Below are positions 16,640 to 46,895 of a stretch of 55,352 bases of DNA, piece by piece (positions within the stretch are counted from its first letter, which is position 1; each line of letters opens with the position of its first letter). The translations under genes were made by a program, and so were the position numbers. The notes under the pieces are model-generated. The model did not search any database. It worked only from the letters and a program-made list of their open reading frames with translations, and was not told the DNA's origin. Location of the stretch: the IMG/VR virus record IMGVR_UViG_3300015360_002570, positions 1 to 55,352 of that record; one strand, 5' to 3'. Source of the stretch: a virus.

Positions 16640-17197
16640 AGTCTACACGCAAATCTTATCGGACCAGTACCCTTTCCGATCCAGGACCGTACGGGGGTAA
16701 CATTATGGGACGGGGCTCGGCACCTGGCTCATCTGGCACAGGCTGGCACAGGCCCGTTATCGGGCTTTGGCGTCATGCTTTCGTTCAGTGTGTTTCCGGC
16801 TTCTGTACGAGTCACGCTCAACGGCTGATTTTGGGTCAGTCTTTGGGGTTCGTAGGAGGCTTGGCCCCCACTTGGGTTTCGTCTGTTATTGTATAAACAC
16901 CGTCCGCTTACAAAAATCGGTGCCATTCCGACGTTCGTGCCCCGTACGGTACCCAGCACCCTTCTGTGCCACTTCTGAGCCCGATACCCTGGCTCAACTT
17001 GGGCCGTCATTTACCGCTTTTTCTGCTCACTGAGCCATATGAGCCAAGACCCTTCTCTAAATAAAGTAAAGTTGTTATTGTATATATAGATAGGAAGTCA
17101 ACCTAGGCTCACTCGTCTCACTCTTCCCGCTCCCTCCTTTTTCCGCCTCCTCCCCCTAACCCGAACACCCCTCCCCGATGGGAGAGGGGGGGTCCCA
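16640..17197. other. Intergenic region, AT-rich in part; candidate origin/control region
   Basis: No convincing gene was seen in about 550 bp. It holds three forms of the GGCTCA element (16725-16740, a partial one near 16990, and 17031-17046), a TGGCACAGGC direct repeat (16735-16754), a small GCCCG/CGGGC hairpin near 16753, and an AT-rich stretch (17049-17098) with TATATATA. Close to the helicase stop, CCCCTCCCC-GAT-GGGAGAGGGG forms a hairpin that may end helicase transcription. It lies near the divergence of the two transcription blocks, so replication or control functions are plausible. Confidence 0.5.
17031..17098 (+). repeat. GGCTCA/TATATA element, copy 1
   Basis: TGAGCC-AT-ATGAGCCAAG, then TTCTCTAAAT, then TGTATATATAGATAGG. 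An inverted homologue lies at 46831-46895 with the same order of parts. Confidence 0.65.
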
Positions 17198-18634
17198 TTA
17201 GTCCTCTCCCTGCTTCAGGAGGCCCAGACCCACCAGCCCTCGCACCTGGCCGCCCTCCACCCGGACCCGGTTCTTCTTCAGGCTCCAGCTTGTCTCTGTC
17301 ACGAGCGTCACCGGCAGCATGTTCCTTGGAACATCATCCTTGATCTTGTTCACCCTCCTGTACTCCTGCCACGTATCCCACAGCGTCTCGTTCGTGACAA
17401 ACCCATCATCCTTCTTCTCGAACCGGGCCTGCAAGAACTGGTCGTACGGATTGTTCAGCGCCCTGTAAGTGTCCGCGATCTCCTTCGCGCTCTTCAGCTC
17501 AGGCCACCCCAGCCCCTTTTGAAGGTCGCAGGCTCCCCGTACCGCCCAGGCCGCGATTCCCGCCGCCTCCTTCTTCAACTTGTCCTCCAGGTCCAGCTCG
17601 GGCTTCTCCCTGAAGCTCTTCACGAAGGGCAGAATCACCATCTTGCTGCCCATGCTGTCCCCATCATTCGCCATTGTGGGAATCCGGTTGCTGCTCAGCA
17701 CCACCATCGCCCCGCACGTCACGTTCTTCACCTGTCTCTGGTACTTGATGTTTACCGGAAAACTATCCCTGCCCACAATATTCTTCACGATCCCCGTAAA
17801 CTTCTGGTTGCTCACCCAGTCCTGGCCCACCAGCTCGCTGATGCTCAGCACCCTTGCAAACTCGCACCCGTCCAGCCCGAACGTGTCCGTCAGGCTGCTC
17901 ATCGTGCTGCTCATAAAGCACACGTCCCCCAACAGCATCTGGATCATCCTGACATTCACGCCTTTGCCGCCCCTCGTGGCCCCGAACAGCAGCGGAATCT
18001 TCGCGTGCCTCCTGTTTCCCGTAATGGCTGCCCCGAAAATCCTCTGATCCAGCACCTTCCACTCGGGCTCCGTGGCCCACTCATTCAGGCACTTCATCCA
18101 CCGGGGACACTGCGCCCCCTCCTCATACGCGCAGGGCATGACTCCCGGATCAAACCACGTCTCATCCCTCACCACCGTCCTCACTTCCCCCGTCTCGACG
18201 CTCAGCACTACGTCCTCGAACCCCACACAGTGCTCAGGATTGAACCTTTGCTCCGCCTCTTCCGTCCACGCGGGCGCGTTCACCCAGTTCCCGGTTCTCA
18301 GCGCCGCGATGGCCGCCACCACGTCCTCACACTTGTTCTTCGTGGGGCTCCACCTCTTCGCGCTCATGCCGCCCCCCACCGGCACCCAGCAATGCACGTT
18401 CTCGCCCCACCTGAACACATGATCCGTCAGGGCCTGGCGCCCCCTCTTAACCCACCTTCCCTTATACCACACCCAGAACTCGTCCCTCCAGCACCATAGG
18501 CCCACCCTCCCGTTCTCCGTGGCCATCTCGCTCCTCAGAAACGCCCGCGCCAGCCCCATGCTCTCCATCAGCATGATCGGCCTTGCCAGCGTCCCGTCCC
18601 CGTCCTGTATCACATCACTCTTCACTTCACTCAC
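17198..18634 (-). CDS. D5/P4-type SF3 helicase (primase C-terminal type)
   Basis: 478 residues. The superfamily 3 core is clear: Walker A LLFGATRGGKGV (about 216-226), an acidic Walker B-like SISELVG (264-270), and the sensor strand VVLSSNRIPTM (311-321). Upstream lies the D5_N-type region (WYKGRWV; FDPGVMPCAYE). An archaeo-eukaryotic primase domain is not seen, so it is probably the replicative helicase alone. GTG 18634 is chosen because AAAGGAG precedes it by 6-7 nt. Its start is only 14 bp from the divergent ATG at 18649. It is the first gene of the leftward block. Confidence 0.88.
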   Translation of the reverse strand: MSEVKSDVIQDGDGTLARPIMLMESMGLARAFLRSEMATENGRVGLWCWRDEFWVWYKGRWVKRGRQALTDHVFRWGENVHCWVPVGGGMSAKRWSPTKNKCEDVVAAIAALRTGNWVNAPAWTEEAEQRFNPEHCVGFEDVVLSVETGEVRTVVRDETWFDPGVMPCAYEEGAQCPRWMKCLNEWATEPEWKVLDQRIFGAAITGNRRHAKIPLLFGATRGGKGVNVRMIQMLLGDVCFMSSTMSSLTDTFGLDGCEFARVLSISELVGQDWVSNQKFTGIVKNIVGRDSFPVNIKYQRQVKNVTCGAMVVLSSNRIPTMANDGDSMGSKMVILPFVKSFREKPELDLEDKLKKEAAGIAAWAVRGACDLQKGLGWPELKSAKEIADTYRALNNPYDQFLQARFEKKDDGFVTNETLWDTWQEYRRVNKIKDDVPRNMLPVTLVTETSWSLKKNRVRVEGGQVRGLVGLGLLKQGED

Positions 18635-18636
18635 GC

Positions 18637-18648
18637 TATACTCCTTTC
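18637..18648 (+). promoter_or_regulatory. TATACT box 6 nt before ATG (leaderless type)
   Basis: TATACT (18637-18642), CCTTTC, then ATG 18649. The same bases read on the minus strand supply the AAAGGAG ribosome site of the helicase. Confidence 0.5.
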
Positions 18649-19107
18649 ATGCTCGGTCCTTCAATCGACGACAACCCCTACCCCGCCCGCACCTCTCCCG
18701 ACGCCCAGGACATCCTGACCCGTCCCGGCCTCCACCCCAATATGCGCGCCCTCCGGGCCAACGTTTCTCGCCGCGGCGAATCCGCAGTCCGCTCCACCCT
18801 CACCAAACGCTACGGCGCCTCGGACGCCTCCGCCTACCTCGCCCGCCTTCTCAACGTGCCCGAACACTCCTCCCTTGAGTCCGACGTCGATGCCGTTTCT
18901 TACCGTACCCGCACGCCCACGCACCCCCCCTTCAATGCCCCCCGCCGCCCCAAGCCCCGGTACCGCTACCAAGGCCCCCCCTTCAACGATCCTTCCGACT
19001 TCGGCCAGGACGGGAACCAGAACGACTTCCAGAAGTTCATGGAGGGCAATCCCCCCCCGCGCCGGAAGAACGTCGATATAATCGACCCTGGCTACCGCTT
19101 TTCCTGA
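18649..19107 (+). CDS. Hypothetical protein, 152 aa; first rightward gene
   Basis: Not recognised. It starts MLGPSIDDNPYPARTS; the middle is helical (MRALRANVSRRGESAVRSTL; ASDASAYLARLLNVPEH) and the C-terminus is Pro/Arg/Asp-rich and probably disordered (APRRPKPRYRYQGPPFNDP). A TATACT box lies 6 nt before the ATG and there is no ribosome site. As first gene of the packaging/head block it may be a DNA-packaging accessory. Confidence 0.7.
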   Translation: MLGPSIDDNPYPARTSPDAQDILTRPGLHPNMRALRANVSRRGESAVRSTLTKRYGASDASAYLARLLNVPEHSSLESDVDAVSYRTRTPTHPPFNAPRRPKPRYRYQGPPFNDPSDFGQDGNQNDFQKFMEGNPPPRRKNVDIIDPGYRFS

Positions 19108-19113
19108 AAGCAT

Positions 19114-19129
19114 AGGCTCATCAGGCTCA
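19114..19129 (+). repeat. GGCTCATCAGGCTCA element
   Basis: AGGCTCATCAGGCTCA, 22 bp before the ATG of the 19152 gene. The spacing suggests an operator or other protein-binding site; copies stand at 16725, 17031, 46808 and 46880. Confidence 0.55.
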
Positions 19130-19151
19130 CACTTCTCATCCGACCCTCTTT

Positions 19152-19718
19152 ATGGAAGAAAATCTACGAAGTATTTCGTTTCCCTTTACGGTCAACCGGC
19201 TCTACGAGGAAACCCACATGCTCGCCGCCCTCGCGCCCTTGGGCTTCACCAAACGCACTTTTCGGGCCTTCCTCGCCTCCCTCTGCGTTCCCTACCTCGA
19301 AGTGGGAACGCACCGCTTCATCGACGCCCTCTCCCTCTCCATCGGTCTCCGTGCCATCATGCGGGTGGGCCGCAAGCCCTTCATCACATCCACAGCACCG
19401 GCCCGCCGCAAGCACGGCTCCCGCGCCCTCTCCTCCTCCTTCGAGACCCAGCTCGATCCCGCCTACGTCGAGCGCAACCTCAACTCCCTCCTGCTCGAAG
19501 TGATCGGGGCCGCCGAACTCAAGACCCACACCAAGATCGACTCGGCCATCAAAAAAGCCTGCCTGCTCGCGGCCCGCCGCATGGCCATGTCCTCCGTCGA
19601 TCACCTGAACCGCTCCGACCAGCACGCTTCCGCCCGGCTCCGCGCCCGCCTCATCGAAAAATATTCCGTCTTTGCCGACCAGCTCGAACCTCCTACCCCC
19701 CGAAAGAAACGTGACTGA
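19152..19718 (+). CDS. Putative HTH protein upstream of terminase
   Basis: 188 residues, basic. A possible helix-turn-helix lies at LGFTKRTFRAFLASLCVPYLEVG (about 30-52), followed by a helical middle (YVERNLNSLLLEVIGAAELK; SAIKKACLLAARRMAMSSVD) and a basic C-terminus (PPTPRKKRD). The position shortly before the large terminase and the HTH-like start would suit a small terminase or regulator, but similarity to a known family was not recognised. It overlaps the next start (GTGACTGA). Confidence 0.65.
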   Translation: MEENLRSISFPFTVNRLYEETHMLAALAPLGFTKRTFRAFLASLCVPYLEVGTHRFIDALSLSIGLRAIMRVGRKPFITSTAPARRKHGSRALSSSFETQLDPAYVERNLNSLLLEVIGAAELKTHTKIDSAIKKACLLAARRMAMSSVDHLNRSDQHASARLRARLIEKYSVFADQLEPPTPRKKRD

Positions 19719-20226
19719 CCATGTAGCCTTCGATCCCGTTGATCCCGCCGACCTCGTCCTCGCCCGCCGCGGCGAGAGAGCCGCCATCAGCATGTTCTCC
19801 TTCGACGGTATCGGTCAGGCCGTCGAAGCCAACGCCTTCACCCAGGAGGAACTCGTCTCTGGCATGATCGACCGCATCAGAAGCCCCAAGGCCGAGATCG
19901 CCCACGCCGCAGCCGCCCTCTTCACCAAGTACACCAGGGAAGTCCTTGAGCTCAGCGGTCGCATCGGAAAAGCGACCATCACCAGGAAAGAAAATGACAA
20001 TCAACAAACCATCAGCACTCAAAGCATCATCCCTTCCTTCGACGCCGATTCGCTCGCCGTCGCCGGTAAAACCTTTATTCCCCCCCTCTCCCATCCACCT
20101 CTCTCTGGAGGACCACCTGAAGGACTCCCGGCGTCGCCTGGAGCACCTCTCTCTCCAGGACATTGCCCGCCTGGTCTCTCCCCTCTTCCAGGACCTGGGA
20201 ATCCCGGACCCCTTCCGGTGGTTTGA
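19711..20226 (+). CDS. Hypothetical protein; small-terminase candidate
   Basis: 171 residues from GTG 19711. The N-terminal 95 residues are well formed and helical (FTQEELVSGMIDRIRSPKAE; AAAALFTKYTREVLELSGRI); the last 70 are Pro/Gly/Ser-rich because the frame runs on through the next gene for 233 nt. The helical core with a repeated acidic/basic pattern could be a small terminase oligomerisation domain; this rests mainly on position before the large terminase. Confidence 0.6.
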   Translation: MTDHVAFDPVDPADLVLARRGERAAISMFSFDGIGQAVEANAFTQEELVSGMIDRIRSPKAEIAHAAAALFTKYTREVLELSGRIGKATITRKENDNQQTISTQSIIPSFDADSLAVAGKTFIPPLSHPPLSGGPPEGLPASPGAPLSPGHCPPGLSPLPGPGNPGPLPVV

Positions 20227-20638
20227 GGCCCACCTCGGCTTCGTCGCGCTCATCCCGGCCTCAATCGACTGGCGGGGCGGCTGCGCCAACGAGTGCCTCA
20301 ACTACACCCACGTCGGCCCCGGCGATCCCCTCATCATCCTGCTCCGGGCAGCGGCCCTCTCCCTCTACCTCCGGTGCGTGAACCCCCCATGCGAAGTCCC
20401 ATCCCCATCCCCCGCACCGGAAACCCCAACTATCCCCTCCCCGCTGACTACTACGAACTCACCCCCGAAGGAGCCCGACAGGCCCGAGTCAACGCCTGCC
20501 GACAATGGCTTATTCCAGGAAACCCCATTGAAACCGGAGACCGTCGCGTCGCCTCCACCTGGTTCTTCGACCGATACTACCTCCACCCCGACCCACAAGG
20601 GGACTTCGACCCAGGCTTCTACGACGACCCCCCGCTAG
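19994..20638 (+). CDS. Hypothetical protein with long overlap into terminase
   Basis: 214 residues from ATG 19994 (AGGAAAGAAA before it). Residues 30-135 read as real protein (HLSLEDHLKDSRRRLEHLSL; DIARLVSPLFQDLGIPDPFR; NECLNYTHVGPGDP). The last 80 residues are Pro/Thr/Ser-rich and lie out of phase over the first 250 nt of the terminase gene. Unknown function. Either the tail is tolerated disorder or one of the two annotated ends is wrong. Confidence 0.6.
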   Translation: MTINKPSALKASSLPSTPIRSPSPVKPLFPPSPIHLSLEDHLKDSRRRLEHLSLQDIARLVSPLFQDLGIPDPFRWFEAHLGFVALIPASIDWRGGCANECLNYTHVGPGDPLIILLRAAALSLYLRCVNPPCEVPSPSPAPETPTIPSPLTTTNSPPKEPDRPESTPADNGLFQETPLKPETVASPPPGSSTDTTSTPTHKGTSTQASTTTPR

Positions 20639-22341
20639 AAACCCCTTCTCTCCACTGGGATATGTCCCGCCAGTGGGCTCTCTACCGGATGTCCGTGACC
20701 AAAGCCCCCCGCGGCTGCGCCAAGTCCACGCACTGCCGCAAGGACATGCTTATGTGCATGGTCTCGGCTCCCAGATACTCCTTCGCGTACGCCACCTCCA
20801 CGCACGACAACGCCAAGTTCACCGGCCAAGTCCTCCGCGACCAGGGCTTCAACAACCGCCGCATCAATGACGACTTCTGCCCCGACTACGACCTCGCCTC
20901 CCTCAAACCCGTACGCGGTTCCAAGCCCACGGGCGTCGAGTTCTTCTTCCTCAACAACGGCTCCTGGGTCCGCTCCGTCAGCGCCCAGTCCCGTCTACGC
21001 GGCCTGCGCCCCAAGAAGTTCCGCCTCGACGACCCCGAGTACGACGAGCACAAAACCACGTCCATGCAGGACATCCGCGACTACATGGACCGCCTTCTTT
21101 TCAAGATTGCTCTTCAGATGGTCCTCCGCGCCGGGGCCGGTATCGACTGGGTCGGCACCTTTGTCTCCAAGCGACACTATCTGTGGCACGCCCTCTCCAC
21201 CATCAAGATGCCCGACGGCACCGTTCGCGCCGAGGACTCCCGCTTCGACCACTGGGCACGCCTCTCCCTCAACGCCGCCTACGAAGGACCCGACGGCTCC
21301 CTGATCTCCGTGTGGCCCGATATGTGGCCCTCCACCATCGCCGAGAAAGTCCGTCTCAACAAACTCAACCGCGTCTCCATCGAAGAGATGCCCTCCATCA
21401 TGGGCGTAGCGGCCTTCAACGCCGAGATGATGGACCGCCCCGGCTCCGCCGATGACGAAGCCTTCTTCAAGTTCGACCCCTCCTCCCACGGCCCCCACGC
21501 CTACTGGTACGAGGACATCGACACCTTCTTCCCCAACAGCCCCTGGCGCACCACCACCTTAATCTGCTACCTCGATCCCAAAACCAAAGCCACCGTCCGC
21601 ACCCCCCTGCCCGAGTTCCTCGCCTCCTGCCGCCTCTTCATCACCATCGACACCGCCTACACCGAAAAAGCATCCTCCGACCGCCGCTGCTGCACCCAGC
21701 TCGCCCAGGCACCCGGCAACATTCTCTTCGTCCTCGACATGTGGAGCGACCGCAGGCCCGACTCCGTTCTCGAACACCAAGCCTTCGAGATGGCCCACCG
21801 CTGGCGATCCCCTGTCATCTACATCGAAGTCGTCAAGGAATCCTTCAAGGTCTACGCCCGCTTCGTGTCCTCCGTGCAGACCCGCATGGCCGACAACCTC
21901 GTCGCCTCCTCCTCCCACATCCCCTCCATCAAGCCCCTGCGTCCGGGCCTCATCTCCAAGCTCGACAAGATCGCGGGCCTCGACACCCGCTTCGAGCACT
22001 CCCTCATCAAGATTCCCATCGACCGCCGCATGGGCGCCGGTTCCTGGTCCCGCCTTATCGAGCAGATCGAAGGCTTCACGCCCGAGTCCCAGACCCTCCC
22101 CAAGGACGACGAGATCGACACCGTCTCCATGTCCATGTTCGTCCTGAAGGGCCGTCGCGCCCTCCCCCTCTCTCAGGGCTCCGCCTACGAACCCGTTGAC
22201 CCCGTCGCCCTCCTTGAATCCGGCCAGACCCACTGGCTGGGTATGCCCATCGTCGGCGGCCTCGACATCAACACCGTTCCCCACCACCTCATCCAGGCCG
22301 CCATGTCCGCCGCCTCCTCCTCCGGAGAATCCAAGATATGA
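20389..22341 (+). CDS. terL: Terminase large subunit
   Basis: 650 residues. The packaging ATPase has Walker A KAPRGCAKST (about 105-114) and Walker B FRLDDPE (211-217), with the coupling region near SKRHYLWHAL. The C-terminal RNase H-like nuclease starts at FITIDTAYTEKASSD with the first catalytic Asp, followed by LFVLDMWSDRR. Protein-like sequence begins right after ATG 20389 (NPNYPLPADYYELTPEGARQ), which supports that start over later ones despite the overlap with the preceding gene. The stop overlaps a 14-codon ORF (ATGA). Confidence 0.93.
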   Translation: MRSPIPIPRTGNPNYPLPADYYELTPEGARQARVNACRQWLIPGNPIETGDRRVASTWFFDRYYLHPDPQGDFDPGFYDDPPLETPSLHWDMSRQWALYRMSVTKAPRGCAKSTHCRKDMLMCMVSAPRYSFAYATSTHDNAKFTGQVLRDQGFNNRRINDDFCPDYDLASLKPVRGSKPTGVEFFFLNNGSWVRSVSAQSRLRGLRPKKFRLDDPEYDEHKTTSMQDIRDYMDRLLFKIALQMVLRAGAGIDWVGTFVSKRHYLWHALSTIKMPDGTVRAEDSRFDHWARLSLNAAYEGPDGSLISVWPDMWPSTIAEKVRLNKLNRVSIEEMPSIMGVAAFNAEMMDRPGSADDEAFFKFDPSSHGPHAYWYEDIDTFFPNSPWRTTTLICYLDPKTKATVRTPLPEFLASCRLFITIDTAYTEKASSDRRCCTQLAQAPGNILFVLDMWSDRRPDSVLEHQAFEMAHRWRSPVIYIEVVKESFKVYARFVSSVQTRMADNLVASSSHIPSIKPLRPGLISKLDKIAGLDTRFEHSLIKIPIDRRMGAGSWSRLIEQIEGFTPESQTLPKDDEIDTVSMSMFVLKGRRALPLSQGSAYEPVDPVALLESGQTHWLGMPIVGGLDINTVPHHLIQAAMSAASSSGESKI

Positions 22342-22382
22342 ACCTAAGCGACATCGTCTCCCTCGAAGGAAAACTACCATGA
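22338..22382 (+). CDS. 14-codon ORF linking terminase and next gene
   Basis: MNLSDIVSLEGKLP. Its ATG overlaps the terminase stop (ATGA) and its stop overlaps the ATG of the next gene (ATGA), while GAAGGA inside it can serve as ribosome site for that gene. It looks like a coupling peptide that carries ribosomes from terL onward. Confidence 0.4.
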   Translation: MNLSDIVSLEGKLP

Positions 22383-22669
22383 ACGCCACCCCCTCGGGCG
22401 TCACCGTGCCCGTCTCCCTCTTCACCGCGATGGCCTCCTGCTACTACGGCACCGGCCCCCGCCTGCACGAAGCCCGAGAGTCGCCCCCTCTCCCGCCGTC
22501 GTCCCCGGACCAACGGGAGAGGGGGTCCGAACCCTTATTGAATCAGGAGATCGCCGACCCCGAGACCCTCGAAGCAATCTCTTCTCACTCCCGGTGGACG
22601 CCTCTCGGCTGCGCCGCCAAAGCCCGTCATCCCGCTGCATATCCTACAGTCGTACCCAAGGAGCAGTAG
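22379..22669 (+). CDS. Hypothetical protein, 96 aa
   Basis: Not recognised. MNATPSGVTVPVSLFTAMAS start, then an inserted-looking Pro/Ser/Glu stretch, then NQEIADPETLEAISSHSRW and a basic C-terminus. The middle is encoded by two copies of the GGGAGAGGGGG motif in opposite orientation (22484-22494 and 22521-22532), which form a perfect hairpin inside the gene. It lies between terminase and portal and ends 3 nt before the portal ATG. Confidence 0.65.
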   Translation: MNATPSGVTVPVSLFTAMASCYYGTGPRLHEARESPPLPPSSPDQRERGSEPLLNQEIADPETLEAISSHSRWTPLGCAAKARHPAAYPTVVPKEQ

Positions 22670-22672
22670 TTC

Positions 22673-24667
22673 ATGCCGGTAGACACCTTCAACCTGACCA
22701 CCGACAAGGACGTGCTGCCCCAAATCCTCCATGCGCACTGCGTGAGGTCCGAATCCCAACTGATGATCCGCCGGGTGAACTGGCTCCTGGCCTGGTACTA
22801 CATGAACGGCTATCGCCGCTTCAACGTCTACGACCCCGTCTCCGGGATGATTTCACCCCAATACCTCACGACCGATCAGAAGATGGAGTACCAGTCCACC
22901 AAGCTCCTCTACGTCATCAACCAGATGGCGGGCCGCTTCCAGTCGATGGACTACCGACCCAGCGCCACACGCCAGGGCGGCTCCCTCGCCTCCATGCAGA
23001 ACAGGGCCGTTTCCCAGATCACAGCGGACGCCATCACGTCCACCAACCACATCGAAGAAGTGAAAGAGCACGCCTCCTACCTCCTCACCTGCCTTGGCTC
23101 GGTCGGTCTGTGCGGCCATCTCGTCGATCACCCGACCATCGGACTCACCTCTGACATCGAGGTCGTGCATCCCCGCGAACTCCTCCCCTTCCCCGTCCAG
23201 GGTCAGGACCACACGAAGGTGCGGGGCATCATCCGCCAGCGCATGGTCCCCCTCTCCTATCTGAAGGAGGTGTACGGGGCCAGACGCATCGAGGCCCGCC
23301 TCGACAACATGGAACGCTACCAAAGGGCGATAGGCGACGCCATGCTCGACGCCGACAACAACAACGACTCCAGCGCGTCGGGTGTCACCTGGTTCGACGG
23401 CAGCAAGGGCACCTCCACCCGCAAGTCCGGGGACACAACCCTCGAAGTGGCCCGCATCCGCGAACTCTGGCTCTACGGACCCAACGGCACAACCCGCCGC
23501 TACATCGCAACCTGCGGCATGGCCCTCCTCGACGACCAGGACCTTTCCGACGTGGAAGCCTACTGCCCCATCGGCTTTGCCCGCTTCCTCAACAACGGCA
23601 CCTTCCACGGCACCGGCATGTTCGACCTCCTCTTCTCCATCCACCGAGAACTCGAAACCCTCCAGAAGACCCTCTTCGACAACGTCCGCAACCTGGACCG
23701 CTACGGGATGCTCGTCATTCCCGCGGGCCAGATGAACCAGAACACCGTCCTGAAGGACGTGGGCCGCGGCCTCAAAGCCGTCTTCTATGAGCCCGACCCC
23801 ATCGCTGAAGGCTTCAACCCCTTCGCCATCCAACCCGTCACCACCGGCGACATGCCCGGTCGGGTGGCCGCCCACGCCTCCGAACTTATCGACGGCATCA
23901 ATCCCATCCGCGACCTGATCCAGGAGAAGGGCCGCGTCGATAGCGCGCCCGGCCTCGCCTTCCTCGACGAGCAGATCAACAGGGCCATCACGACGCCCTC
24001 CCTCAACATCCAACGGATGTGGGGCACCATGTACAAGTCGCTGGTCCAGAAAGCGGCTCAGAACCTGGCCGTCTCCAAGCGGTCCCTGCCCGTCGGCGAG
24101 CTGACCCTCGACCTCGCGGGCGCCATCATCGACCCGGCCACCGACTCTGTCTCCTTCGCCGACAACCCCCTGCCCGACGTATCCCGCATCAACTTCACGA
24201 TCCGGTCGGCCAGTCCCAAATCCGAAGTAGCCCTGAAGCAGGAGGCCATTGACCTCTGGGTCAAGGGCGTCGAGCAGGACCCCCTCAACTTCCGCCTCTA
24301 CTGCCTGAAGGCGGGTCTCGACATCCCCCTCTACATCGAAGACGACCGTGGCGCCTACCAGTCCACCATCCGCCTGATTCTCACCCTCTACAACGACGGT
24401 CAGGAACCCGGCTTCATCGCGCCCGCGCCCCACACCAGCAAGCCCGACCTGGCCCTTCGCATCCTCGCCGGTTTTATGACCAGCCCCGCGATGCAGGTCG
24501 CCTCGGTCGAAGTCGTCGATGCCTTCCTCGTCTTCCGCGAAACCCTGATGATGTTCGCCGGAATCTCACTGCCCCAGGCCGTGCCGAACCCCGACGACGC
24601 TGCTATGCTTAACGGCGCTCCCCCTCCCGGACTTCCCGGTGGAAGTCCCCAGTTGGCCCTCGCCTAG
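22673..24667 (+). CDS. Portal protein
   Basis: 664 residues. Assigned by size, position directly after terminase and before the scaffold and capsid genes, and portal-like segments: LLAWYYMNGYRRFNVYDPVS, MEYQSTKLLYVINQMAGRF, the helical VKEHASYLLTCLGSVGLCGH and PRELLPFPVQ, and a long helical C-terminal part (IRDLIQEKGRVDSAPGLAFL; QINRAITTPSLNIQRM). It would form the dodecameric ring for DNA entry and join the tail. AAGGAG lies 10 nt before the ATG. The type is close to podovirus-like portals. Confidence 0.85.
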   Translation: MPVDTFNLTTDKDVLPQILHAHCVRSESQLMIRRVNWLLAWYYMNGYRRFNVYDPVSGMISPQYLTTDQKMEYQSTKLLYVINQMAGRFQSMDYRPSATRQGGSLASMQNRAVSQITADAITSTNHIEEVKEHASYLLTCLGSVGLCGHLVDHPTIGLTSDIEVVHPRELLPFPVQGQDHTKVRGIIRQRMVPLSYLKEVYGARRIEARLDNMERYQRAIGDAMLDADNNNDSSASGVTWFDGSKGTSTRKSGDTTLEVARIRELWLYGPNGTTRRYIATCGMALLDDQDLSDVEAYCPIGFARFLNNGTFHGTGMFDLLFSIHRELETLQKTLFDNVRNLDRYGMLVIPAGQMNQNTVLKDVGRGLKAVFYEPDPIAEGFNPFAIQPVTTGDMPGRVAAHASELIDGINPIRDLIQEKGRVDSAPGLAFLDEQINRAITTPSLNIQRMWGTMYKSLVQKAAQNLAVSKRSLPVGELTLDLAGAIIDPATDSVSFADNPLPDVSRINFTIRSASPKSEVALKQEAIDLWVKGVEQDPLNFRLYCLKAGLDIPLYIEDDRGAYQSTIRLILTLYNDGQEPGFIAPAPHTSKPDLALRILAGFMTSPAMQVASVEVVDAFLVFRETLMMFAGISLPQAVPNPDDAAMLNGAPPPGLPGGSPQLALA

Positions 24668-24676
24668 GAACCCCAC

Positions 24677-25639: not shown

Positions 25640-25696
25640 GCCCCCGTTCTGCCCCCCTCTTCGGGACGGGAGAGGGGGGCAGAAAGCAAGGGACTT

Positions 25697-27340: not shown

Positions 27341-27367
27341 ACTCCGGCCTTCACATCTGCTACTCTC

Positions 27368-35382: not shown

Positions 35383-35383
35383 C

Positions 35384-36646: not shown

Positions 36647-36655
36647 ACTGGTGGT
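36644..36655 (+). promoter_or_regulatory. TAAACT box 6 nt before ATG
   Basis: TAAACT-GGTGGT-ATG; the box overlaps the stop of the preceding gene. Confidence 0.4.
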
Positions 36656-39135: not shown

Positions 39136-39449
39136 AAATCAACTGGAAAGAAGTGACCCGACAGATCATGGCGGGCCTCGACAACTCCTACCGCTTCAAA
39201 ATCGTCTTCTCCCAGGCGGAAGAGGGGGTCTGGGTACCGCGGGGCATCTTCGTGGCCCAGAAGGGTCTCACCCTGAAGGAGTTGAGAAGGTGGTTGTGGG
39301 AGCAGAGAAAGTGCCGGTTCCTGGAAGAAAAGGGCGTGAGCCTGTGGGCCGTGAAGGACGATGACGGAACGGTCTATGTGGGATTCGCCCAGCAGGTGAG
39401 CGGGCGCGTGGCGGAGCGGTGGATCAGGATGGGCGGGCCGACCTTATGA
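39132..39449 (+). CDS. Small basic protein, 105 aa
   Basis: Not recognised. A compact, aromatic and basic globular protein (NSYRFKIVFSQAEEGVWVPR; TLKELRRWLWEQRKCRFLEE; VSLWAVKDDDGTVYVGFAQQ). It lies between two membrane-segment proteins with overlaps on both sides. Confidence 0.75.
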   Translation: MKINWKEVTRQIMAGLDNSYRFKIVFSQAEEGVWVPRGIFVAQKGLTLKELRRWLWEQRKCRFLEEKGVSLWAVKDDDGTVYVGFAQQVSGRVAERWIRMGGPTL

Positions 39450-40093
39450 GTATTATTCCAAAGAGAGTCCTCGCCTACCTAGAGGGAGCCTGGGCCAGCG
39501 CCCAGGCTGCGGCGAAGACGGGCGCCCGGTCTGCGGGGGCGGCGGGCGCCCAGGCTGTGGAAGCGACGGCGGGCGTCCGGTCTGCGGCGTCGGCGGGCGC
39601 CCAGGCTGCGGCGGCGGGAGCGAAGAAGGCTGCGGTGACGGTGGGCGGAGCCACGATGGCGGGCTTGGGCGTTCTCAAGAGGAACAAAGGGAAGATTGCG
39701 CTGGGGGCGGCGGCGGGCGTGGGTCTGACGTTCGCCGACGAGATCGCGGGAGGGGTAGCTGACGCGGGCGAGGGCGTGCATGAGGCGATAACGAACGCGA
39801 GATACGACGAACGACGGGGTGTGTTGAGGCAGGCCCGTCAGAACCAGATGCTCAGGGAGATCGAGGCCCGGAAGCAGGAACGGGCCGTCGCCATGAACAC
39901 GATGCGGTTGCAGCAGCTCGATCCCCACCTGTACGCCGAGATCAGCGCGGGACGCCAACTGGCGCGAGACTCCGTGCCGATTGGGGGCCGCAAGCGCGAA
40001 GACCTTCTGCGACAGGTCGCCCTCCAGATGAGCCAGGGCCGCTTCGGAGGTCCGCCCCCCGATACGGGAGAGGGGGCCTTCCTTGGACAGTAA
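39446..40093 (+). CDS. Ala/Gly-rich membrane-segment protein, 215 aa
   Basis: Residues 15-70 hold two duplicated segments (TGARSAGAAGAQAV and AGVRSAASAGAQAAAAG). A glycine-rich hydrophobic stretch (IALGAAAGVGLTFADEIAGG, about 85-104) could enter a membrane. A charged helix follows (LREIEARKQERAVAMNTMRL). It ends with a GGGAGAGGGGG copy encoding TGEG. Probable ejection or membrane-active virion protein. Confidence 0.65.
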   Translation: MSIIPKRVLAYLEGAWASAQAAAKTGARSAGAAGAQAVEATAGVRSAASAGAQAAAAGAKKAAVTVGGATMAGLGVLKRNKGKIALGAAAGVGLTFADEIAGGVADAGEGVHEAITNARYDERRGVLRQARQNQMLREIEARKQERAVAMNTMRLQQLDPHLYAEISAGRQLARDSVPIGGRKREDLLRQVALQMSQGRFGGPPPDTGEGAFLGQ

Positions 40094-41735
40094 CGTAAAT
40101 AAGATGCCCCCCGAACTGCGGATGGTGTCGCTGACAAAACACCTGAATCGTGTGCCTACGGAGGACCTCATTCGGGAGATCAGGGGGGAGCCCAACGCTC
40201 TCTTGAAGGAGCTGGCCGGACCCAAGCTGCTGAGGGAAGCGATGCAGGCGGAGCTGGCTGGAAGGATGCCGGAGAAGTGGAAGTTCGAGAGCCAGAAGCC
40301 GAACCCCCCCAGAAAAGGTCCGGGGGGCGCCAACACGAACAGGCTGATAGCGACTCCCAACGACAAGATTAATCTGGATGTCCCCCTCTCCCGTCCGGTG
40401 ATGGAGAAGATGTATGCGAGGTATCTAGAGGGGTCAACAAAGAGGACGGTGGATAAGGAGGATTTTCCGCGGCTGCACGCGGCTCTGGAAAAGACGGTCA
40501 GGACGGCCAAGGCACGGTCGATGCGGGGTCCAGAGAAGGAGCCCGAGAAGACGCTGAACGAACTGAAGCAGGAGAAGGAGGCCGCCTTCAGGGAAGACGA
40601 GCAGATGATGGAGGAGGAGCGCAAAGACAGGCGGGAGAGGAAGGCTGATGCCGAAAACAGGAAGGGGTTCGAGCATAAAAGGAGGGAGCCCGATCAGACG
40701 AGGTCGGGGTTCAGGCCCGGTGTGGATGCGTCCGTGCCCAAAGAGGTCGTGGATTTCAAGAAGAGCGCCAGGGAGATCAGCAATCCGTTGAAGCAAGGGA
40801 GCCTGAAGGAACGCATGAAGATGCTGGAGAGGGAACTGAACCACGCGATGCAGGACGTGAACCAGAAGTTCCCCCCCGACAATAAAGAGTCGTGGGACAG
40901 TCCGAAGAACAAGAAGATGTTCAAGGAACGGGTGTCCCGCCAGACGGACATTGTGCGGGCGACGGTTGAGGAGGGCAGCCGGTTCGCGGACGCCTCCGAG
41001 ATCAACAAGCTCGTAGCGCCACACCACAAACTGTTGGCGAACAGGCCCGAGTACTTTGCAAAGCAGGCATTAAACGACTTTAACGAAGCGAAGAAGGGGG
41101 GCGCCGACCCAGGCCTGGTTAAGAGGTTGGAGGAGTTGGCGGCGGGGCAGGCCGACGTGGTTGTTCATGTGAAGAGGGGGGAGTACACGCAGGCCCACCT
41201 GAAGGGGCTGGAGATGTTCAACCTGGAGCAAATGATGAAGAACCCCCGCAACCAAGAGGCGAGGGGACTCAGAGATTCCTACCAGCGGCAGTACTACAGC
41301 GTGGTGGATGGTGGGGGCCAGCGGTACACGAAGAGCCCCGAGTACGATGATGACGGGAGGCCCGTAACCACGGAAGGGCAGGACCGGTCCCGCAAGAAGC
41401 AGGAGAGGAGGGAGGACTGGAAAGCGAACACGGATCAGAACAGGGCGATTGCGCAGGACGCTGAGTGGACGACGGACCAGAAGGCGGCGGCAGGAAATCT
41501 TGGCAAGGCTGAGAAGGGTGGGGCAAGGGGGGGCAGCCCCATGCCGAGGGTGGGGCCGGGAGGCGCGAACGTGAACAGGCTGAGCGGCGAGGGGAGGCCG
41601 CCTGTGTTCAGCTGGAATCCGCCCATTAAGCCGTATGTGAAGCAGGTGGGCAGGCTGATGACCCCGATGGAGAAGAAAGCGGGGCTGATCTGGAAGATTT
41701 TGAGGCAGTTGGCGAGGCGGAAGTTGAGGCTATAG
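40083..41735 (+). CDS. Charged helical virion protein, 550 aa
   Basis: Very rich in Lys, Arg and Glu with long coiled-coil-like tracts (NELKQEKEAAFREDEQMMEE; ERKDRRERKADAENRKGFEH). A phrase GPGGANTNRL near residue 78 recurs as GPGGANVNRL near residue 495. TTG 40083 is listed because a GGGAGAGGGGG copy 6 nt upstream can act as ribosome site; ATG 40104 is the alternative and would start the protein at MPPELRM. AGG is the main Arg codon. Likely an internal protein that contacts DNA. Confidence 0.65.
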   Translation: MDSNVNKMPPELRMVSLTKHLNRVPTEDLIREIRGEPNALLKELAGPKLLREAMQAELAGRMPEKWKFESQKPNPPRKGPGGANTNRLIATPNDKINLDVPLSRPVMEKMYARYLEGSTKRTVDKEDFPRLHAALEKTVRTAKARSMRGPEKEPEKTLNELKQEKEAAFREDEQMMEEERKDRRERKADAENRKGFEHKRREPDQTRSGFRPGVDASVPKEVVDFKKSAREISNPLKQGSLKERMKMLERELNHAMQDVNQKFPPDNKESWDSPKNKKMFKERVSRQTDIVRATVEEGSRFADASEINKLVAPHHKLLANRPEYFAKQALNDFNEAKKGGADPGLVKRLEELAAGQADVVVHVKRGEYTQAHLKGLEMFNLEQMMKNPRNQEARGLRDSYQRQYYSVVDGGGQRYTKSPEYDDDGRPVTTEGQDRSRKKQERREDWKANTDQNRAIAQDAEWTTDQKAAAGNLGKAEKGGARGGSPMPRVGPGGANVNRLSGEGRPPVFSWNPPIKPYVKQVGRLMTPMEKKAGLIWKILRQLARRKLRL

Positions 41736-41760
41736 TTGGAGACACCCTGGAGACACGAAG
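41733..41760 (+). promoter_or_regulatory. TATAGT box with a leader
   Basis: TATAGT overlaps the stop of the preceding gene, but here the ATG follows 22 nt later, after a leader with two GGAGACAC repeats. It may be the leadered form of the same promoter type. Confidence 0.4.
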
Positions 41761-42330
41761 ATGAGTGGTCAGTTCCCGATGCCCGTTAAAGAGTTCAGCG
41801 ATTTCGAGGTGAAGACGAGGACGTTCGGGCCGTACGCGGCTGCGAACTTCGCCAGCACCGACAACGTGGTGCGCCTGCCCATCATGTTCGAGAGGGATGC
41901 AGTCGTGCATAAAATGAGCGTGCAGGCGGGCACGAGGAGCAGCGTGGACGATGTCGGCCTGACCCTGATGAAGGGGGCGATCAACGCGACCACGAAAGTG
42001 GTAACGGCGCACAGTGGTACGGTGGCCGCGAGTCCGAACAATCGGGTGAGCAGCACCCGGAATATCGGGGATGGGACCACAACCAACCAGGTGGGGATCA
42101 CGAACAATCGCAAGGAACAGGTCGAGCTTATCAAGGGGTTCGGGACGGGAGCCGCCATCGTGGTGCCGGGCGTCGAGCCGGGCGATCAGGTGTTCACAGG
42201 CGGCGTGGTCCAGGGGCCGTACGAAAACATTATTGAGGCGGGCAACGAACTGTACCTGCACACGGACCTGGCGGCGACGGACCTGGCGGGGCTCTACGTG
42301 CATCTGGTTATTGGGTACAGGAAGGCATAA
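41761..42330 (+). CDS. Decoration- or fibre-like structural protein, 189 aa
   Basis: Mostly beta-strand sequence with Gly/Asn turns (VRLPIMFERDAVVHKMSVQA; VDDVGLTLMKGAINATTKVV; GAAIVVPGVEPGDQVFTGGV; NELYLHTDLAATDLAGLYVH). The composition fits a head-decoration or small tail protein. It has its own promoter-like box and a strong terminator, consistent with high expression. The family is not recognised. Confidence 0.7.
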   Translation: MSGQFPMPVKEFSDFEVKTRTFGPYAAANFASTDNVVRLPIMFERDAVVHKMSVQAGTRSSVDDVGLTLMKGAINATTKVVTAHSGTVAASPNNRVSSTRNIGDGTTTNQVGITNNRKEQVELIKGFGTGAAIVVPGVEPGDQVFTGGVVQGPYENIIEAGNELYLHTDLAATDLAGLYVHLVIGYRKA

Positions 42331-42363
42331 CAAGGCGGATCGGGTGCGAGGACCCGGTAGGTG

Positions 42364-42396
42364 AAAAACCCCCTGGCGTGAGGCCGGGGGGGTTTT
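42364..42396 (+). terminator. Intrinsic terminator (probably bidirectional)
   Basis: AAAACCCCC/GGGGGGTTTT stem followed by TTTTATTT on plus; on minus A-rich bases give TTTTT after the stem, so it may also end the convergent 43034-42489 gene. Confidence 0.85.
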
Positions 42397-42488
42397 ATTT
42401 CATCTGTGGATAGGCGCGCCAAAGAGCTTCCAACCGATGATGATCCAGTAGAGAAATGAGATTGTCATGCGGGAGGGTAGAGCGTAAC

Positions 42489-43034
42489 TCAGCCCTTTGG
42501 AGACTCCGGGGGGTTGCCGTTGGCGCCTTCCCACTCGCGGGCGAACTGTTCGAGTACGAGGTACATCATGCGACCGATTTCGATCTGAGTGGTGGGCGTG
42601 CGCTGCGCGAGAAGGTGGAGGATGTCGAAGATGAGAGACACACAGATAGATGCGTTTGTGGTGTCCACTTCGTCCATGTCGTCGGGGGAAGAGGCACCCC
42701 CGTAGCCGCCAAGAGACTCGCCGATGGCGCGAAGTGCGCAGAGGGCGCGGGCCGCTCGCTCTTCCCCTTGTTTGGTTGCGACGTAGGCCCTTTCGAGGGG
42801 CGGCAGGGTGTCAAGCAAGGACGGGAGAGGGGGCAAAGGCTCGGCGTCGGTGAGGGGAACCGCGGTGAACGTGATGTCGGTGCAGCCTTCAACAGGAAGT
42901 GCGGATAAGGGCCAGATGCCCAGCTCTTTGCAGAGGAAGTTCCACGCTTTGTTACGATTCTCTTCGCCGAGGGAGGCGGCGGATGTGAGGTCGTAGGCTT
43001 GGAGGTTCGTGAGGGTGTACTGGGTGCGGGCCAT
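42489..43034 (-). CDS. Lone leftward gene in the virion block, 181 aa
   Basis: Not recognised. A soluble helical protein (TNLQAYDLTSAASLGEENRN; KAWNFLCKELGIWPL; SICVSLIFDILHLLAQRTPT; IGRMMYLVLEQFAREWEGAN) with a Pro-rich middle. It is the only leftward gene between 18.6 and 46.8 kb. Its ATG lies 19 bp from the divergent ATG of the 43054 gene, and it converges on the terminator at 42364. It may be a separately regulated early or accessory gene. Confidence 0.7.
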   Translation of the reverse strand: MARTQYTLTNLQAYDLTSAASLGEENRNKAWNFLCKELGIWPLSALPVEGCTDITFTAVPLTDAEPLPPLPSLLDTLPPLERAYVATKQGEERAARALCALRAIGESLGGYGGASSPDDMDEVDTTNASICVSLIFDILHLLAQRTPTTQIEIGRMMYLVLEQFAREWEGANGNPPESPKG

Positions 43035-43042
43035 GTGGTTCC

Positions 43043-43053
43043 TACAGTGGGGT
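43043..43053 (+). promoter_or_regulatory. TACAGT box 5 nt before ATG
   Basis: TACAGT-GGGGT-ATG, within the 19-bp gap between two divergent start codons. Confidence 0.5.
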
Positions 43054-46000
43054 ATGAGCAGGTACAGCGAGTTCAATATTTATGATGCGCCCAGCGCGAT
43101 TGCAGGTCAGGCCCTGAAGGGGCAGTTGAGCCTGAAGAACGCGAGGGACGCGGTCCTGAATCCTGAGAATCTGAGTCCCAGTGAGCGCCAGAACCTGTAC
43201 CAGACGCTGACGGGAGGGGGGTCGGGCAACCGGATCGTAGACACGCTGGGCAACATCGCCACAAGTCCGTGGCTCTACATCGCACTTCTTACGGGGCCGC
43301 TGGGTGTGGAGGCCCTGAAGGGCGGGAAGAGTTTGTTCATGCTGGCCGCGGCGAAGAACCCGATGGCCCGCAAAACCCTCACCATGTTGGAGAGCGCGGG
43401 TGTGATGGGGCTCAGCACCATGATGCCCAGTCACGCGGTACAGGCCGGACAGGACATGCAGGGCGTGATCGAGGAGGGGCTGGAGTTGGCGGCACGGATG
43501 GGGGCAAAGACGGAGGCGGCGCTGCGGGTGGCCATTGAAACGAGGTTGGCGGGAAAAGGCGTAATCGCCAAGATCACGACGCTTAATCCCGAAGACTACA
43601 AAGGGGTGGTTGGGGAAGAGGTAAACCGGGTGATGTGGGGAATCCGGGTCAGGGGGACCGGGCTGGATGACGTGGCGGAGACCTCGTACCAGAGGGGGAA
43701 GCTGAGCGGGTTTACGGTGACGGATCGGAACGGAAACGTGCTGACGCCCTCGGCCCTGCCCAAAGATTTGACGGAGGAGCTGGAGGCGCTGGAGAACGTG
43801 AAGGGCGCTCCGATGAAGACCTATACGAGCGCGGTTGAGGGCTTAAACAACAGGTTGGAGCAGAGGGCGGTCGCCGCGCAGCAGGCCGGGAACGCGGCGG
43901 GTTCGGTTCCCTTCCGTGTGACGATCAAAATGGAGGAAGAGACGCTGTTGAGGGAGAAGCGGGCCGCCTACTTCAATAAGGGGGATACGGACAGGTTGTT
44001 CGCGGAGTACCCCGAAGCGCTGGCACATGTGGAGATGATGGAGGACGTGGGGCGGATCGGGTACGTGAAGCTGGTGGGCGACGAGACCCGGATGCTCACG
44101 CCCCAGGGCGACCTGGTGCGGGGCGGAGCGTTTCATACGGACCAAGATAAGCTGGAGCGGTTGGCGGAGGTTCTCCGCCACCAGAAGTTGGGAGAGGGGG
44201 ACAATGAGGCAACGGGCGCCAAGCTGTTGGGCTGGATCGTGGGCCAGGATAACACCAGCGAGATGTGGAGACTGGTGAAGAAGGGGGATGCGGGAGCGAT
44301 TGCGCAGGCGAAGGCCATGCTCGACGCGAAGTTGAGTACGGAGTGGGGCCAGAAGTACGCGCCGAGGAATCTGATGAAGCCCGCGGAAGTGGTGGGCGTG
44401 GAGCTGCCGAAGGGGATGAGGGAACTAGAGGAAGACTATCACACGATGGCGGTGGGCGCGGGCCGCGTGATCCCGCGGACGGATGCGGTGCCCCTGTATC
44501 ACAATAAGGATATGGTAGATGCGGGCAAGCATTTTGGTCTGACGAAAGAGGGAATGGACCACATCAGTCTGGTGGACGAGGAGGCCGCCAAGGCTCTGAG
44601 AAGGGGGCGGGAGAAAGACGGGTTTAAGGAGACGCTGTCCACCCACTCGTTGAGACTGGAGGACAGTCATGCGAGGTATGTGGTCGAAGTCCATAGGGCG
44701 CACGCTCTCAACACGGCGGCGGTCAGCGACGCCGCGTACCGGCATGAGGCCCACAACGCGAGACAGGTGCCGACGGAAACCAGGCAGCGCCAGACTCAGC
44801 ATGGGTTCGGGGGCCCCAACCAGGGCTATACAAATCCGAACACGGGGGCGTCGCATCCGGGGATCAGCGTGCCCCTGGGAGAGCCATTGCGCGACGGGTT
44901 GAAATCGAGGGGGATCAAGGATACGAGTAACTACATGCTGCTTCAGAGGGCGCATGACGGGATGGTCGATCCCGCGAGGCAGGCGATGCTGCGCAACGTG
45001 CTGATTCCCAGCCTGGTGGGATCGTCGAATCATTCCCAGATGGCATACGCCGCGAGCATCGAGTTCCAGAAGTCGATGGCCGGTAAGTTCGCAAAGAGCA
45101 AGATCGGGAACATGGTGAGGGCGTGGGGCGGGAAGCACGGCGCCGCCTTCGTCGATGACATGGAGGAGTTCTCGAAGAAGGAGCTGAATCCCACGGGCAC
45201 ACAGACGATGAGCAGGCACCTGGCCAACTACCTGTTCGTGACACATATGGGGTTCAATGTATCAAGCGTGCTGGTGAACATGATGCAGCCGTTGACGCTG
45301 GCGGCAGGGGCTACGGGGCTGGGTGGGATTGCGAAGGGGTATGGGAAGGCCATCAAGGAGGTGTTTGGATATGTGGCGGAGCGGGTGGGCAGCGGCAAGG
45401 CGTTCGCAACGGACGTGGAGAGGGCCGCCCTCATCAAGAAGCACTTTAAGTGGGCCGACCAGGCCGGGATCACGCCCGACTGGATGCGTCTGGTTGAAGG
45501 AAGAAGCGGCGTGGACGGCTGGATGGGCAGGGCCAGCAAGCTGGCGATGAATCTGTTTGAGAAAAGCGAGTGGTTCAACAAGAGCGCGGCGGGGCACATG
45601 CTGGAACACGCCTACGTGAAGGCGGGCCGCAACGTGATGACCGACCCTCTCTTCAAGAGCGATATGAGAGGGTGGATCGCCAGCACGCAGTTCGCGCCCG
45701 ACAAGCTGTTCACGCCTCTGGTCTTTCTGGAGCCCGACAGCCAGATCAGGGGTGTTAAGATGCACGGATTGCTGTCGAACCCCCTCGTGAAGATGTTCAT
45801 GCAGTTCCCGGTGCGGACGGCCACGAACTTCTGGGCCATCCATCCCGATCTGGGAGGGGCGGAGGGCGTGGCCAGCAAACTGAAGTATTGGGGCCGGGCC
45901 TTCGCCATCAGCGCGGTCGTGAATGAGGTGGGAAAGGGGATACTGGGCGTGCATTTGAGCAGGGGCCTGGCGGCGAGCAGCGTGACCGACGTGATGGGCG

Positions 46001-46818
46001 GCAACAAAGTGCTGTACAACGATCAGTGGTATCCGATGCCGCCCGTGGTGAGGATGGCCACCAATCTGGTGAGGGGATTAGGTGGGGACACCACGGCGAT
46101 GGCCGACTTCCTGGCCACCAGCGTGCCGGGGGGCATCGCGTTGGGAAGGGCCGTTGGAGTTATGCCCCAACTGAGCCCGTTGATGGGCGCCGGGTTGCTC
46201 CAGAAGACATATGCGGATTATGGGAACATCCAGCCCGACGGCACGGTGCCCGTCTATAAGTGGGACGGCACGCTCATTGAGAACAAGACCCCGGCGGAGA
46301 TTGTGATGAGAGGTCTGGGCGTTGATCTGGGAAGCTGGGGCGAGCAGGGGGCCATTGATGGATACCTGATTAAGCAGAGGGCACGGATTCTCAAGTACAG
46401 GCACGAGTTTCTAAGGAGGCTCGCGGGCAACGACACGGCGGGCGCCGAAGCGATCAGGAGGGAGTTTGGCACAAAGTTCAAGGACCCCGTCAACGGCCAG
46501 CCCATGCCCCTTACGGTGACACAGCAGCAGGTCAAGAGCTACATGAGGGCCAGGGCGATGATGGGGCGTACGGAACGCATCCTGGACAGCCTGCCCGCCG
46601 ACGCCAGAAGCCAGTACGCCGCCTTCGCGGAAGGTGCGGGCGCCAGCAGGGGCATCGACCTCACGAGCGGCGCCACGGCCTCCACACGGGAGAGGGGGGA
46701 CACCACGATTCAGGATGATCGGATCAGGGAGTTGCAGAGGAGGGTGGAGGCGGTGGGACCGGCAGCCGCCCAGAAGACAGGGTTCGATAAGTTCGCAAGT
46801 TACTCGGGAGCCGGATGA
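43054..46818 (+). CDS. Very large internal virion protein, 1254 aa
   Basis: The largest gene. It is mostly helical with hydrophobic segments near the N-terminus (SPWLYIALLTGPLGVEAL, about 67-84) and centre (MGFNVSSVLVNMMQPLTLAA; AFAISAVVNEVGKGILGVHL). Size, last place in the head/tail block and membrane-like segments match the large DNA-ejection protein (gp16-like) of short-tailed phages; a lytic transglycosylase motif was not found by eye. AGG is the main Arg codon. Two GGGAGAGGGGG copies are within it. The stop codon lies in a GGCTCA element. Confidence 0.7.
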   Translation: MSRYSEFNIYDAPSAIAGQALKGQLSLKNARDAVLNPENLSPSERQNLYQTLTGGGSGNRIVDTLGNIATSPWLYIALLTGPLGVEALKGGKSLFMLAAAKNPMARKTLTMLESAGVMGLSTMMPSHAVQAGQDMQGVIEEGLELAARMGAKTEAALRVAIETRLAGKGVIAKITTLNPEDYKGVVGEEVNRVMWGIRVRGTGLDDVAETSYQRGKLSGFTVTDRNGNVLTPSALPKDLTEELEALENVKGAPMKTYTSAVEGLNNRLEQRAVAAQQAGNAAGSVPFRVTIKMEEETLLREKRAAYFNKGDTDRLFAEYPEALAHVEMMEDVGRIGYVKLVGDETRMLTPQGDLVRGGAFHTDQDKLERLAEVLRHQKLGEGDNEATGAKLLGWIVGQDNTSEMWRLVKKGDAGAIAQAKAMLDAKLSTEWGQKYAPRNLMKPAEVVGVELPKGMRELEEDYHTMAVGAGRVIPRTDAVPLYHNKDMVDAGKHFGLTKEGMDHISLVDEEAAKALRRGREKDGFKETLSTHSLRLEDSHARYVVEVHRAHALNTAAVSDAAYRHEAHNARQVPTETRQRQTQHGFGGPNQGYTNPNTGASHPGISVPLGEPLRDGLKSRGIKDTSNYMLLQRAHDGMVDPARQAMLRNVLIPSLVGSSNHSQMAYAASIEFQKSMAGKFAKSKIGNMVRAWGGKHGAAFVDDMEEFSKKELNPTGTQTMSRHLANYLFVTHMGFNVSSVLVNMMQPLTLAAGATGLGGIAKGYGKAIKEVFGYVAERVGSGKAFATDVERAALIKKHFKWADQAGITPDWMRLVEGRSGVDGWMGRASKLAMNLFEKSEWFNKSAAGHMLEHAYVKAGRNVMTDPLFKSDMRGWIASTQFAPDKLFTPLVFLEPDSQIRGVKMHGLLSNPLVKMFMQFPVRTATNFWAIHPDLGGAEGVASKLKYWGRAFAISAVVNEVGKGILGVHLSRGLAASSVTDVMGGNKVLYNDQWYPMPPVVRMATNLVRGLGGDTTAMADFLATSVPGGIALGRAVGVMPQLSPLMGAGLLQKTYADYGNIQPDGTVPVYKWDGTLIENKTPAEIVMRGLGVDLGSWGEQGAIDGYLIKQRARILKYRHEFLRRLAGNDTAGAEAIRREFGTKFKDPVNGQPMPLTVTQQQVKSYMRARAMMGRTERILDSLPADARSQYAAFAEGAGASRGIDLTSGATASTRERGDTTIQDDRIRELQRRVEAVGPAAAQKTGFDKFASYSGAG

Positions 46819-46822
46819 GCCA
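46808..46822 (-). repeat. GGCTCATCCGGCTC element
   Basis: A minus-strand copy of the GGCTCAT-NN-GGCTCA element overlapping the stop codon of the 1254-residue gene. Confidence 0.45.
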
Positions 46823-46830
46823 GGCCCAAA

Positions 46831-46895
46831 CCCCAAGATATATATACATTCTTTTCTCTAAATGTTTAGAAGGAGGGCTTGGCTCATCAGGCTCA
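46831..46895 (-). repeat. GGCTCA/TATATA element, copy 2 (inverted)
   Basis: Read on minus: TGAGCC-TG-ATGAGCCAAG, TTCTAAA...TTTAGA (a 6+6 bp palindrome), then ATGTATATATA. It has the same order of parts as 17031-17098 in opposite genome orientation. It lies where the two transcription blocks converge. No gene is seen between 46819 and 46981, apart from a start-less coding-like minus frame at 46893-46980. Confidence 0.6.

Follow-up and report, generated by a model that had tools for sequence, protein, structure and literature searches.

A candidate replication origin beside a D5-type helicase gene, and a second array of its half-sites, in the genome of an uncultivated tailed phage

The uncultivated phage record IMGVR_UViG_3300015360_002570 (55,352 bp, 62% GC; the whole stretch was analysed and is called the window here) carries two similar elements, A and B, in inverse orientation, one beside a gene for a D5-type helicase at about 17 kb and the other close to 46.9 kb. 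This arrangement raises the question of what the two elements are for and which protein reads them. An earlier note on the same DNA had offered origins, operators and sites of recombination as possible answers. Our overall best explanation, with a probability of about 0.72, is that A is an origin read by the helicase and that B is a second array of the same initiator. Taken by itself, A is very probably the phage replication origin, with the rep-ori layout of Staphylococcus aureus pathogenicity islands (SaPIs) and phage-inducible chromosomal islands (PICIs), because it lies behind the helicase gene, has arms around an AT-rich core, keeps its design in relatives and coincides with a maximum of cumulative GC skew. 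The suggestion of origins therefore holds for A, and for B it is plausible; we infer binding, melting and initiation at A and the whole of B's role.

Each element is about 90 bp long and consists of inward-facing tandem half-site arms around an AT-rich core of about 60 bp; its parts are, in order, a pair of TGAGCC half-sites spaced by 9 bp, a T/A-rich box, the AT-rich TGTATATATA core and the half-sites again, now inverted. TGAGCC-NN-ATGAGCCAAG, TCTAAA and TGTATATATA are found at 17031-17090 (+) and on the reverse strand of 46831-46895, and TGAGCC-N3-TGAGCC, TCTAAA and TGTATATATA follow each other in A and B alike, in inverse orientation. This shared order had been claimed before and is confirmed, with motif counts and core alignment beyond those of shuffled sequence. 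TGAGCCNNATGAGCC occurs eight times with at most two mismatches, against 1.9 expected, and none of 100 shuffles reached eight. Exact tandem TGAGCC pairs number three in the genome (17031, 19115 and 46881), all with a 9-bp period; none was found there at any other period from 6 to 15. When the cores of A and B were aligned locally in the orientation of the earlier note, the score was reached by 2 of 5000 shuffles, and in the opposite orientation by 341 of 5000. B is the best-formed copy. The copy at 46807, listed earlier as a further single copy, is the inverted second arm of B (GGAGCCGGATGAGCC), and A has such an arm as well (GGCTCACTCGTCTCA). Among the other single copies listed, that at 19115 is exact and that at 16726 carries a mismatch (GGCTCATCTGGCACA).

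The elements are 29.8 kb apart one way and, if the window closes on itself, 25.6 kb the other way. The map appears to be circular or circularly permuted, since the genes of the window's right end continue directly into those of its left end in the nearest relative, G001; no terminal repeats of at least 10 bp were found in the window, and closure is taken from this gene adjacency. Genes from about 1.1 to 18.6 kb read leftward and encode, among others, an A-family DNA polymerase, a uracil-DNA glycosylase and the D5-type helicase. From 18.6 to 46.8 kb the genes read rightward, starting with the terminase (identified from PHROGs) and followed by portal-, capsid- and other structural-type genes in the usual order, and from 47 kb on they are mostly leftward again. 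A had been placed near the divergence of these blocks; more precisely, it lies 1.5 kb to the left of the divergence at 18.6 kb, with the helicase gene in between.

The profile of this helicase family matches the SaPI5 primase-helicase 7ola (E 3.4e-15), and DUF5906 was detected in 13 of 13 members, D5_N in seven and Pox_D5 in three. A structure search with the AlphaFold model of the helicase also returned 7ola as the top match; because the AAA+ core of the model has low confidence, we used it only in support of kinship. Based on these matches and on the gene's position, the helicase is probably the protein that binds A.

Near relatives were not found among annotated phage records, either by megablast of the block or by tblastn of the terminase against known phages. 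A portal search led to two relatives with 66% identity (L006 and L007), and a helicase search to more. In most of the relatives, whose helicases are 33-49% identical, a like-built element lies behind the helicase stop codon, and its half-site differs by lineage, being GTACC in most and TGACC in L035 and L039. In L090, TGCC-type arms lie one small gene further on, as judged by eye only. A motif-blind scan was run on six genomes, 297 kb in all (the window, G001, G003, G005, G007 and G009), for any 5-mer present twice at 9 bp and its reverse complement present twice at 9 bp, 50-110 bp further. With zero mismatch, the one place returned in each of G003, G005, G007 and G009 was the element that follows the helicase gene, and in the window it was B; nothing else with a 9-bp period was found in the 297 kb, and 10 shuffles per genome gave about zero. 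With one mismatch A appears, together with a few low-complexity places. The counterpart of A's core in G001 is, like the core of A in the window, the most AT-rich 60 bp of its genome. Cumulative GC skew has a local peak no more than about 200 bp from the element in both genomes, at 16,864 in the window and at 8,499 in G001. Gene direction does not explain the flip, since the helicase gene is on one strand with the leftward genes next to it.

In eleven distant relatives the two arms of the element agree in 91% of half-site letters and in 43% of spacer letters. Half-sites that match between divergent spacers point to double-stranded protein-binding sites of the iteron kind, and not to a hairpin. 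Across all relatives the arms align, and the cores align poorly between lineages. The origin of plasmid pRN1 offers a comparison: it has an inverted repeat of about 100 bp that starts 54 bp behind the gene of a superfamily 3 (SF3) helicase replication protein, and it needs a stem-loop, specific protein binding not having been seen (PMC4234260). The pRN1 repeat and A are alike in lying close behind a helicase-type replication gene. They differ in that A does not fold and the likeness between its arms is largely confined to the half-sites, whereas B folds but does not lie behind such a gene. A hairpin origin of the pRN1 type was therefore rejected for A, given the folding z of -0.5 and the 43% spacer agreement.

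The SaPI Rep helicase reads a short-iteron origin directly downstream of its own gene through its C-terminal domain (Ubeda 2007 as described in PMC7581432), and in E. coli PICIs the origin invariably has an AT-rich region with a set of iterons on each side (PMC6092414). A fits both descriptions, with half-sites downstream of a helicase gene and in two sets around an AT-rich region. The likeness extends to the D5/Primase_Cterm-type Rep helicase beside the origin, which the helicase of the window resembles by its match to 7ola. The distance from the helicase stop codon to A is 77 bp, and the element is likewise close in most relatives; B is not so placed. Arms around an AT-rich core are present in A, in B and in the relatives, with only one clear arm in G001. 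For iteron binding by the C-terminal domain, the sign is an indirect one, a loop near the C-terminus that changes with the type of half-site. However, the window represents a complete tailed phage and not a satellite: it encodes a DNA polymerase, a terminase and a portal of its own, and with terminase, portal and capsid-type genes present it is not a PICI. Its half-sites also differ in their 9-bp period within inward arms and in the second complete copy at the opposite pole. On sequence grounds, A would belong to a known kind of origin, with the antipodal copy and the half-site switch setting this variant apart, and a satellite-type layout would have been carried into a family of uncultured tailed phages. 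It would also give a motif-blind rule for finding origins in metagenomes, namely to look behind D5 helicase genes for inward-facing arrays whose half-sites recur every 9 bp.

Operators are an alternative: a phage regulator bound to the half-sites would govern promoters located in the AT-rich cores and the genes that follow these, and the half-sites would play no part in replication. In favour of this are the lone pair at 19115, which is 22 bp ahead of a start codon, the position of A in a gap before leftward genes and the TTTTGATA..GGYCTTTC block that follows the array in relatives. However, a scan for sigma-70-like promoters, which leaves other promoter types outside its reach, found none in the A or B region, and B lies between facing gene ends. 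Arms that flank an AT core of about 60 bp and are always tied to the helicase gene fit an origin better. The same is true of TGAGCC arrays in unrelated phages. TGAGCC double arms, searched blind in 2.9 million viral contigs, were found at four loci in two lineages, neither with detectable kinship to the window's genes. In L082, L083 and L085 a replication gene holds the array within its 3' end; this gene encodes a Toprim primase with further replication-protein matches in L082 and L083 and an AAA_25 helicase-type protein in L085, and the sequence of L084 is nearly identical. The pattern of tandem half-sites plus TCTAAA was also tried on viral contigs and rejected, its four matches all being unrelated. 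We regard operators, which the earlier note had suggested, as an unlikely account of the arrays as a whole; such a role is most plausible for the lone site at 19115.

Returning to A as an origin and B as its partner, we think it likely that B is bound by the same protein as A, and the odds lean slightly towards B serving replication in some way. The chief competing account of B is that A is an origin and B a hairpin at facing gene ends, serving as a two-way terminator or mRNA end protector, its likeness to A being due to descent or chance. Indeed, B folds into a long hairpin (z -5.3), whereas A has no fold, and B spans the stop codon of the gene at 43054-46818 and precedes the end of a leftward gene. 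However, the loop would be nearly 50 nt, the T-run typical of intrinsic terminators is missing and a terminator scan was negative at B. The TCTAAA and TGTATATATA boxes match those of A in order and spacing, which a terminator does not need. This rival is given a low probability.

Bacillus phage SPP1 is a precedent for two origins, oriL and oriR, and its gp38 bound at oriR has been proposed to stall forks and to trigger the switch to concatemers (PMC6316719). In SPP1 as in the window, two sites with direct repeats and an AT-rich element share one genome (for A and B as judged by anatomy), one of them at the initiator gene and the other far off in a non-coding gap. SPP1 differs in using gp38, a loader and a DnaB-type helicase, with origins about 13 kb apart; in the window, the initiator that we propose is a D5-type helicase, self-contained, and 25-30 kb separate the two sites. 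B may thus plausibly be an accessory origin or an initiator-bound fork barrier, and with an array at the opposite pole the idea that an origin can serve as a fork barrier could be examined in a second group of phages.

A single protein acting at two sites has a further parallel. In satellite phage P4, a single helicase-primase protein recognises repeats both at ori and at crr, which are separate sites in cis. By our model, the helicase encoded next door would bind the inward-facing, 9-bp-spaced half-sites of A, probably by its C-terminal domain, and two helicase assemblies, coming together on the AT-rich core, would melt it and initiate replication in both directions. B would be a second binding array of the same initiator, nearly opposite A on the genome, and would act either as an accessory origin or, as proposed for gp38 on oriR, as a fork barrier where replication meets.

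The earlier note had also suggested that the elements are recombination sites that inverted, or still invert, the block from 17 to 46.9 kb. A and B are indeed inversely oriented at the ends of the block. However, neither the gene order nor the orientation of the block differs between the window, G001 and G002, and the proteins scanned, which did not include every small gene, contained no recombinase. B is absent from relatives in which the design of A is present, and the element at A stays put while its half-site changes between lineages. Outside the arms and boxes A and B differ, with 39/90 ungapped identities. We consider recombination sites very improbable.

Several observations weigh against reading A as origin and B as its partner. 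B is absent from the corresponding (syntenic) gaps of G001 and G002, for which reason B as a conserved element was rejected, and its position between facing gene ends and its fold could mark a transcription feature. In G003-G009 the scan found no second site besides the helicase-linked element. The expected skew extreme was found near 17 kb (16.86 kb), and there is no change of GC skew at 46.9 kb, so skew was rejected as support for B; the opposite extreme is at about 32-35 kb. Four more distant genomes have weak skew with extremes elsewhere, and skew is therefore supporting, not decisive, evidence for A. A second arm is not evident in G001, where an AT-rich core at A's place is accompanied by one clear arm, in which CTCA is present three times with 9-bp spacing, and the scan gave no match at this site. 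L087 has no clear arms behind its helicase gene, and the blind scan matched neither L087 nor L090. The T/A-rich box adjoins the helicase-near arm in distant relatives and the farther arm in the window, so the orientation possibly differs; the element may have turned round once relative to the helicase gene. Finally, the link between half-site and helicase loop described below was noticed post hoc and comes from two TGACC viruses only, perhaps from one event.

Close to the C-terminus of their helicases, the two TGACC viruses, L035 and L039, have (S/T)KRTRGLRGL; at the same position the GTACC viruses have a form rich in glycine, e.g., GGGKRGLRGL. The helicases of L039 (TGACC) and L044 (GTACC) are 89% identical, and that of L035 is 80-83% identical to those of several GTACC viruses. 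This points to the loop as a putative determinant of half-site specificity. L039 and L044, with different half-sites and loops in nearly the same helicase, are a natural experiment on an initiator's choice of origin. It is possible, although we hold it to be rather doubtful, that the phages have a paired origin and anti-origin, in which one helicase would use A as the start array and B as a matched array that stops or restarts forks for the switch to concatemers, and in which origin address and C-terminal loop would change together to give close relatives with mutually exclusive origins.

Table. Features of the window around elements A and B, with positions on the 55,352-bp stretch.
Feature	Position	Strand	Remarks
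D5-type helicase (DUF5906 / SaPI5 Rep-like)	17198..18574	-	proposed initiator; stop codon 77 bp from A
Element A	17031-17120		
Element A, arm 1	17031..17045	+	TGAGCCATATGAGCC, two half-sites 9 bp apart
Element A, core	17046..17105	.	AT-rich; TCTAAA (17056), TGTATATATA (ends 17088); lowest-GC 60-bp window of genome
Element A, arm 2	17106..17120	-	inverted, GGCTCACTCGTCTCA, one half-site degenerate
Element B	46807-46895		
Element B, arm 1	46807..46821	+	GGAGCCGGATGAGCC, overlaps stop codon of gene 43054-46818
Element B, core	46822..46880	.	AT-rich; TATATATA (46839), TTTAGA (46865)
Element B, arm 2	46881..46895	-	inverted, GGCTCATCAGGCTCA
Outlying degenerate pair GGCTCATCTGGCACA	16726..16740	-	in 870-bp gap behind helicase gene
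Two single half-sites face to face	16976..16996	.	TGAGCC 16976, GGCTCA 16991; same 870-bp gap
Lone exact pair GGCTCATCAGGCTCA	19115..19129	-	between two rightward genes, 22 bp before ATG at 19152

The lone pair at 19115 is identical to one arm of B and may be an operator or a further binding site. A conserved block, TTTTGATA-N4-RRN-GGYCTTTC, stands a short way past the second origin arm in nearly all relatives of the GTACC and TGACC types (loci L035, L037, L039-L041, L043, L044, L046-L049, L051 and L073), with weaker look-alikes in G001 and L087. This block is a candidate part of the origin or a candidate promoter.

Every genome of the family (the same six as in the motif-blind scan) also has a dispersed G-rich motif in a variant of its own: ACGGGAGAGGGGG in the window, ATGGGAGGGGGAC in G001 and AGTGGGGGGA in G003, G005 and G007. 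In the window, GGGAGAGGGG is present in 40 copies against about 5 expected from an order-5 Markov model, at places that include 2713, 3508, 5019, 22515, 24757, 40066 and 53884. Copies lie near both elements (17180 and 46902) but at different offsets, and GGGAGAGGGG was rejected as a part of A and B. In each of the six genomes, most copies have their G-strand on the strand that carries the structural genes (pooled, 91 to 35), and we would guess at a Chi-like role or one in packaging polarity.

The leftward genes (window 1-10000 and 47000-55352) have a strongly C-rich coding strand, with plus-strand GC skew up to 0.53, in contrast to the late rightward genes from about 32 kb. A cluster of short imperfect tandem repeats at 11312-13400 lies in and beside a leftward gene for a Ser/Ala-rich protein of 418 aa that matches PHROGs of unknown function, and parts of this region recur about 1.4 kb apart. 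The window has a single tRNA-Arg gene (anticodon TCT) at 52168-52241 (-). The sole relative in the bacterial genome collection, L051 (PCCS01000007.1), lies on a 22.8-kb contig of a Myxococcales metagenome-assembled genome (MAG); this hints weakly at the host, unless a phage contig was misbinned into the MAG.

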